From Candidatus Abyssobacteria bacterium SURF_5 (GTDB lineage Bacteria; Abyssobacteria; SURF-5), in contig QZKU01000040.1 in assembly GCA_003598085.1 (NCBI GenBank), positions 1-12,899 of the forward strand: DNA of 12,899 bases. The letters run 5' to 3'. Positions 5,172 through 6,533 of the stretch are shown here, one piece after another. The position numbers and the translations under genes are program-made. Below the pieces are notes generated by a model. That model saw nothing but the letters and a program-made list of their open reading frames with translations, had not been told where the DNA came from and did no database searches. The stretch's first letter is position 1. Each line of letters starts with the position of its first letter.

Positions 5172-6533
5172 ATGGAGATTTCGCGGCCTAAGGTGCTCGT
5201 CGTCGACTCCCGCTCGCGCGCAACGAACGACTTGATCGCCTTCTTGCGCGATTGCGAGTTGGAGGTCCTCTGGGCGCCCGACGGGGAGACCGGTTTCAAT
5301 ATTCTCGACAGTGAGCCGATCGACGTGTTGATCACGGAGCTGCACGTGCAGCGGATCAACGGGATGCGTCTTTTGCAGGTGGCCCGGCAGCGCAACCCCG
5401 AGGTGTGCGTCGTCGTGATCACCGCCGACGCGCACGTCGAGCTGGCGACCGAGGCGATGCGGCAGGGCGCATATGATTTCCAGACCAAGCCATTGAACCT
5501 GAGCAAGTTGAGGGTGGTCATCGAACGGGGAATCTCGCATCAGAGACTGGTGCTGCAAATGCATGACCTGCACCAGCGCATCGACGAACGCTACGGATTG
5601 AGCGGCATCATCGGCAACACGCCAAAGATGGTGCACGTGTACAACAAGATCCGTGAGATCGCACCGACGCGCGCGACCGTCCTGATTACCGGGAAGACAG
5701 GCACCGGCAAGGCATTGGCGGCGAGCGCCATCCATGCGAACAGCCCGCGGCGCGACTCCCCGTTCGTCAAGCTGAATTGCGCGGCGCTGGCCCAAAGCGT
5801 CGTCGAAAGCGAGCTCTTTGGTCACGAGCGCGGCTCGTTCACCGGCGCACTCAAAACGCGCAAAGGCCGATTCGAGATCGCCGACGGCGGCACGATTTTT
5901 ATCGATGAAGTCAGCGAGATATCGCCCGCCACGCAGGTGAAACTGCTCCGGGTCCTCGAGGAGCGTCAGTTCGAGCGCCTGGGAGGGAACGAGACCCTCA
6001 AGGTTGACGTCCGCCTGATTGCAGCGACAAACAAGAACCTGAAGGAATTGGTGGACGAGGGGAAATTCCGGGAAGACCTGTATTACCGCCTCGCCGTCGT
6101 CCTTATCGATATACCCGCCTTATGTGAGCGCAAACAGGATATCCCGCTGCTGGTCGAGGCGTTTCTCGATGAATTCAACAAGAGTCACAGCAGGAGCGTG
6201 AAGGGAGTCAGCCGCGGGGTGATGGATGCTCTGATGACGTACGACTGGCCCGGCAACGTGCGCGAGCTGCGCAACTGCATCGAGGGAATGGTAGCCTTCT
6301 CGCGGCCCGGCAGCGTGCTCGGCGTCTCCGACCTGCCGCACCACCTGCGCGAGCAGAAACAGCAGATGAACGGCTTCTCGATTCATGTCGGCATGACAAT
6401 GCAGGACGTTGAGAAGGCGATCATTGAAAAGACCCTCCAATCGACCGGCTACAACAAAGAAAGAACGGCCGAAATCCTCCAGATCGGCCTCAGAACCCTG
6501 TATCGCAAGATCAAGGAATACCAGATCAACTGA
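5172..6533 (+). CDS. NtrC-family sigma-54 activator with an altered receiver domain
   Basis: The protein has 453 residues in the classic three-domain order. The receiver (about 5-120) keeps Asp12, Thr84 and the Lys106-Pro107 pair. However, the phosphoacceptor position reads VLITELHVQ, with Glu56 in place of Asp, and the second acidic residue after Asp12 is Ser13. The AAA+ domain (about 143-375) has a Walker A GKTGTGKA (174-181), the sigma-54 contact loop GSFTGA (221-226), Walker B TIFIDE (241-246), FREDLYYRL with Arg300/Arg306, and WPGNVREL (359-366). A Fis-type helix-turn-helix closes it (about 427-449, AEILQIGLRTLYRKIKEY). The central domain should hydrolyse ATP to open sigma-54 promoters. 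Glu56 may mimic phosphorylation, so the protein could be constitutively active or controlled by expression. Ribosome binding is weak: GGAG sits 13 bases from the ATG, and GAAG is closer. Confidence 0.93.
   Translation: MEISRPKVLVVDSRSRATNDLIAFLRDCELEVLWAPDGETGFNILDSEPIDVLITELHVQRINGMRLLQVARQRNPEVCVVVITADAHVELATEAMRQGAYDFQTKPLNLSKLRVVIERGISHQRLVLQMHDLHQRIDERYGLSGIIGNTPKMVHVYNKIREIAPTRATVLITGKTGTGKALAASAIHANSPRRDSPFVKLNCAALAQSVVESELFGHERGSFTGALKTRKGRFEIADGGTIFIDEVSEISPATQVKLLRVLEERQFERLGGNETLKVDVRLIAATNKNLKELVDEGKFREDLYYRLAVVLIDIPALCERKQDIPLLVEAFLDEFNKSHSRSVKGVSRGVMDALMTYDWPGNVRELRNCIEGMVAFSRPGSVLGVSDLPHHLREQKQQMNGFSIHVGMTMQDVEKAIIEKTLQSTGYNKERTAEILQIGLRTLYRKIKEYQIN

Follow-up and report, generated by a model that had tools for sequence, protein, structure and literature searches.

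The window, a 12,899-nt stretch of DNA from Candidatus Abyssobacteria bacterium SURF_5, encodes at 5172-6533 a predicted sigma54 enhancer-binding activator of the NtrC1/NtrC type with glutamate (Glu56) at the phospho-acceptor position of its receiver domain. We read it as an always-derepressed activator whose pseudo-receiver carries a built-in glutamate and whose output would be set by abundance, and we assign this reading a probability of about 0.52.

The open reading frame, with its start at 5172, yields a protein of 453 residues (Table 1). Pfam matches, all over the curated cut-offs, identify a receiver (REC; Response_reg PF00072, residues 8-117, E 6e-17), a sigma54-interaction AAA+ domain (PF00158, residues 146-312), a lid (residues 319-399) and a Fis-type helix-turn-helix. 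Together within one protein, REC, AAA+ and helix-turn-helix make up the layout of NtrC-type sigma54 activators, the bEBP group with a receiver. RpoN (PF04552) occurs in each genome of the three-member phylum sample described below.

The ATPase core and the DNA-binding domain are apparently intact. The product has a GSFTGA loop (GAFTGA in the orthologues), and the motif table and alignment show Walker B (FIDE), the sensor residues and the arginines (FREDLYYR) to be intact. Walker A (residues 174-181) reads GKTGTGKA instead of the usual GESGTGKE, with the glycine and lysine kept. The residue after the lysine is alanine in all three orthologues and glutamate in at least 90% of a 62-row alignment; other family members have Ser, Gly, Asp or Met there. 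Despite this oddity, normal ATPase activity is assumed.

Table 1. Features of the activator gene and its upstream region, with positions in the window
Feature	Position	Strand	Basis
Extended -10 box TGATATAAT	5116..5124	+	TGnTATAAT in both orthologues
AGGGACTACAAAACCCCT, a 7-bp stem downstream of the promoter and upstream of the start codon; probable dyad of the sequence-only reading	5135..5152	.	not conserved in orthologues
NtrC-type sigma54 activator, 453 aa, REC - helical linker - AAA+ - Fis HTH	5172..6533	+	translation, Pfam, AlphaFold2 model, orthologues
Pseudo-receiver (residues 8-117) with Glu56 in place of the phospho-Asp and Ser13 as DD2	5193..5522	+	PF00072, residue table
Codon for Ser13 (second acidic-pocket position)	5208..5210	+	translation; S/A/S in three orthologues
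GAG codon, Glu56 (phospho-acceptor position)	5337..5339	+	translation; kept in G001 and G002
Alpha5 and linker forming a single unbroken helix of 32 residues (110-141) ahead of AAA+	5499..5606	+	AlphaFold2 model
AAA+ domain for sigma54 interaction; unusual Walker A (GKTGTGKA), intact GSFTGA loop, FIDE Walker B and arginines	5607..6107	+	PF00158, motif table
Fis-type helix-turn-helix (HTH_8), residues 410-450	6399..6521	+	Pfam

The altered phosphorylation site

The phospho-acceptor aspartate of canonical response regulators is absent, with Glu56 in 3/3 orthologues. The Glu56 column is Asp in at least 90% of the 62-row alignment ("nearly invariant D56"), and Glu56 aligns with the Asp of LLDLLL in NtrC1. 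The paired acidic positions DD1 and DD2 are also incomplete: Asp12 (DD1) is kept, and residue 13 is Ser, Ala and Ser in the three proteins. According to the residue table, the receiver further retains Thr84, Phe103 (the aromatic at K-3), Lys106 and the Ala at T+1, and has Leu108 at K+2; the gamma-turn proline at D+4 is missing, with Gln/His instead. The sequence-only reading had named D12, S13, E56, T84 and K106, all correctly, and its pairing of glutamate at the acceptor position with Ser13 at the second acidic position is borne out by the alignment, the NtrC1 match and the orthologues.

In true receivers, DD2 contacts the metal ion directly and DD1 via water (PMC12632262). Since both direct Mg2+ side-chain ligands (DD2 and D) are changed, established receiver chemistry rules out ordinary Asp phosphotransfer, which on this reasoning should be impossible here; for the same reason the protein is excluded from the ordinary response regulators that work by phosphorylation. 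The receiver fits the pseudo-receiver or aspartate-less class, being recognised as REC, lacking the aspartate and key catalytic residues, and being conserved in that state. Glutamate is the most frequent replacement in aspartate-less receivers (26% of ALRs; PMC4395418), about 80% of pseudo-receivers have a non-acidic DD2, and the D+4 proline is often lost (PMC12632262). About half of pseudo-receivers lack the Thr/aromatic combination behind Y/T coupling (PMC12632262), whereas this receiver has both residues. Leucine at K+2 is among the residues that bias CheY towards the active form (PMC12632262).

Orthologues and selection

The phylum sample consists of three genomes, that of the window (G000) and two others (G001 and G002), which represent three different genera of the same family. 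G001 and G002 each encode one clear orthologue (85% and 83% identical to the 5172-6533 product). Both carry Glu56 (AELH) and Ala or Ser at position 13, and keep Asp12, Thr84, Phe103, Lys106 and Leu108. Position 56 is Asp in 107/107 of the nearest relatives outside the family, which come from many phyla. The glutamate is thus conserved across the orthologous group, the point on which the sequence-only reading had proposed to be checked. A scan of genome contigs for further orthologues gave no match above 47%, the phylum sample being three genomes.

In the tree, the three Glu56 proteins form one fully supported clade with a long stem (0.56 changes per column) and short tips (0.06-0.09), so the change to glutamate is older than the split of the genera. 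Judged from this topology, the conversion to a pseudo-receiver took place in the family's ancestor. Among the three orthologues, REC dS is 1.4-2.5, near saturation, and REC dN is 0.07-0.13, giving a dN/dS of about 0.05-0.07. With synonymous sites near saturation and REC dN/dS this low, the altered receiver is under purifying selection. Identity among the orthologues is 81-87% for REC and 84-87% for AAA+. For comparison, a bEBP trio of the canonical type, with Asp, in these three genomes is 81-84% identical and the Glu56 trio 83-85%, so the altered protein is conserved to the same degree as a normal activator. By these measures purifying selection acts on the whole protein, and the altered receiver is a real, selected feature.

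A sequencing error at the Glu56 codon, which the sequence-only reading had set against its own claim, is refuted: the same residue occurs in three separate genomes, and both orthologues that carry it come from other genera. A decaying gene is ruled out by the intact frames, the low dN/dS and an identity equal to that of the canonical trio. We regard the chance that either accounts for Glu56 as negligible.

Promoter and gene neighbourhood

The TGnTATAAT element lies 53-64 nt upstream of the start in 3/3 genomes, with a chance of 0.001-0.003 each under a first-order Markov model. In the window it is preceded by a weak -35-like TTGTTC at 5096-5101, with a 17-nt spacer. The conserved element resembles a sigma70-type extended -10 box and fits expression by the housekeeping sigma factor. 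The sequence-only reading had suggested a shift of control to the gene's promoter, where it noted a dyad. The only dyad between the promoter and the start codon is the 7-bp stem, which was detected on the minus strand as resembling a terminator; it is not conserved in the orthologues, and the extended -10 is conserved instead. The interpretation offered there is thus supported in part: the conserved glutamate, the change of both direct Mg2+ ligands and the departure from an ordinary phosphorylated regulator stand, whereas a conserved promoter dyad does not. Sigma54 autoregulation was rejected: -24/-12-like matches in the window number 9 against 12.1 expected, and the best one near the gene has two mismatches. 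A strong sigma70-type promoter match (TTGACA-17-TACAAT, 11/12) is found at 5021-5049 on the minus strand, facing carboxylase genes; it lies about 420 nt before the first of these and would, if real, leave a long leader.

We did not identify a conserved adjacent kinase gene beside the orthologues in the three neighbourhoods, and an operon or a cognate kinase was rejected, no gene pair being conserved in all three genomes. A PAS kinase is encoded at 10128-12296, 3.6 kb from the activator and on the opposite strand, without a counterpart beside the orthologues. Neighbourhood features are shared pairwise only: carboxylase genes link G000 with G001, and groEL plus an ABC cluster links G001 with G002. 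In the latter two genomes, the orthologues (L111 and L112) are upstream of groEL on the same strand and adjoin the ABC-type cluster; the groEL orthologue of G000 sits on another contig.

Activity of the receiver and competing explanations

Among solved structures, NtrC1 of Aquifex aeolicus (PDB 1NY5, 1ZY2, 4L4U) comes closest in both fold and REC sequence; the two have in common the REC-AAA+-HTH layout and, going by the AlphaFold2 model, a long alpha5-linker helix. The AlphaFold2 model, a monomer that is silent on active versus inactive state, has a mean pLDDT of 91.3, falling to 67-75 at about residues 131-150, the end of the alpha5-linker helix. The continuous helix at 110-141, modelled with low confidence at its end, would be an NtrC1/DctD-type trait; alpha5 and linker as one long helix were reported for NtrC1, unlike LuxO (PMC4878744). 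In NtrC1, the unphosphorylated receiver holds the protein inactive as a dimer, inhibiting the ATPase (PMC4878744). NtrC1 has a phospho-Asp and is switched by phosphorylation, whereas the 5172-6533 product has glutamate, with Ser/Ala at DD2.

The action of Asp-to-Glu as a phosphomimic, which the sequence-only reading had named for NtrC, is documented in this family for NtrC, LuxO and NmpR. The substitution activates NtrC (Klose 1993, as cited in PMC4395418); LuxO D61E is active in vivo and D60E has an active ATPase in vitro (PMC4878744); and NmpR D54E is activating in vivo, D54A being without effect (PMC6211767). Because Asp-to-Glu switches on all three, an always-derepressed activator set by abundance is the likeliest reading, and "locked on" is the one we prefer, at about even odds. 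The engineered NtrC D54E, LuxO D61E and NmpR D54E belong to this family and carry the Asp-to-Glu change at the equivalent site. They are laboratory mutants with DD2 unaltered, whereas the Glu56 protein is natural and conserved. In favour of a phosphomimic, the residues expected to sense the added charge (Thr84, Phe103 and Lys106) are all kept. Against it stand the loss of the D+4 proline, so that loop geometry may differ, and the alanine in Walker A. Glutamate alone often fails to activate receivers, and that of ChxR is dispensable (PMC4395418).

Under the preferred reading, the receiver would not be phosphorylated, and Glu56 together with Thr84 and Lys106 would hold it in or near the active conformation. 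Such an active-like receiver would relieve NtrC1-style inhibition of ATPase ring assembly. The protein would then be active whenever present, its output set mainly by synthesis from the housekeeping-type extended -10 promoter. With Asp-to-Glu activating in the family, NtrC1 as nearest solved relative and alpha5 and linker modelled as one helix, relief of NtrC1-type inhibition is the most economical mechanism. We hold more tentatively, at a little under even odds, that all three genomes examined carry a natural fixed phosphomimic, a permanent version of NtrC D54E in which the Mg2+ ligand is lost, so that there is no reset, and a two-component activator has become controlled by abundance.

The main and serious rival to "locked on" is control by a partner or ligand, in which the pseudo-receiver serves for docking or sensing and a partner protein or small ligand, rather than phosphate, switches the activator. 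The other characterised phosphorylation-incompetent activators covered here, FlbD with FliX (PMC3096577) and FleQ with FleN and c-di-GMP (PMC10723142), are both run by partners, and the receiver here is conserved as strongly as the rest of the protein, which a passive lock would not need. Yet the three neighbourhoods, with their pairwise features, hold no conserved gene for an obvious partner, and the retention of Thr84, Lys106 and Phe103 alongside the glutamate fits a phosphomimic more specifically. We consider partner or ligand control less probable than the always-derepressed reading, at some one chance in three.

Altered ATP handling could instead make the protein a repressor, a decoy or a hetero-oligomer partner of other bEBPs. 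The Walker A alanine, in all three orthologues at an otherwise highly conserved position, points that way, and more than 30 bEBP-like matches in G000 are possible partners. We judge this role unlikely, as the GSFTGA/GAFTGA loop is intact, as are Walker B, the sensor residues and the arginines, and other family members also depart from glutamate in Walker A. Even less credit goes to residual two-component control, in which Glu56 or another acidic residue would be phosphorylated, for example by the PAS kinase. The receiver still has Lys106, Thr84 and Asp12, and the window does contain a sensor kinase, but both direct Mg2+ ligand side chains are changed, that kinase is distant, lies on the opposite strand and has no equivalent next to the orthologues, and Glu phosphorylation is without a known signalling role in bacteria (PMC4395418); we find it very improbable.

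Pseudo-receiver activators are already known (FlbD, FleQ), and Glu-type pseudo-receivers are common across response regulators. FlbD and FleQ are likewise sigma54 activators with phosphorylation-incompetent receivers; theirs are described as widely diverged and run by protein partners, whereas the 5172-6533 receiver is near-canonical except for DD2, D and the D+4 loop. With ChxR and the Glu-type aspartate-less receivers (PMC4395418, PMC12632262) it shares glutamate at D, a non-acidic DD2, a retained DD1 and an aliphatic K+2. ChxR, an ALR from Chlamydia, was characterised for its DNA binding, whereas the output here is a sigma54 AAA+ ATPase and the receiver retains T, K and the aromatic of Y/T coupling. 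The appeal of the protein lies in a receiver that is almost canonical and resembles a naturally occurring version of the well-known laboratory phosphomimic. How pseudo-receivers are switched on and off was described as a mystery in a 2025 review (PMC12632262). The 5172-6533 product offers a clean natural test of the phosphomimic hypothesis: its receiver departs little from the canonical form, the downstream ATPase is of a well-understood type, NtrC1 is a close relative with a solved structure, and ATPase activity makes a simple readout.

A second activator with glutamate at the phospho-site (LLEVQRF) is encoded in the same genome (L116; G000 C117:10633-11967). Its receiver is much more degraded, with DD changed to SK, T to S and K to E, and the receivers of L126 and L136 are degenerate too.
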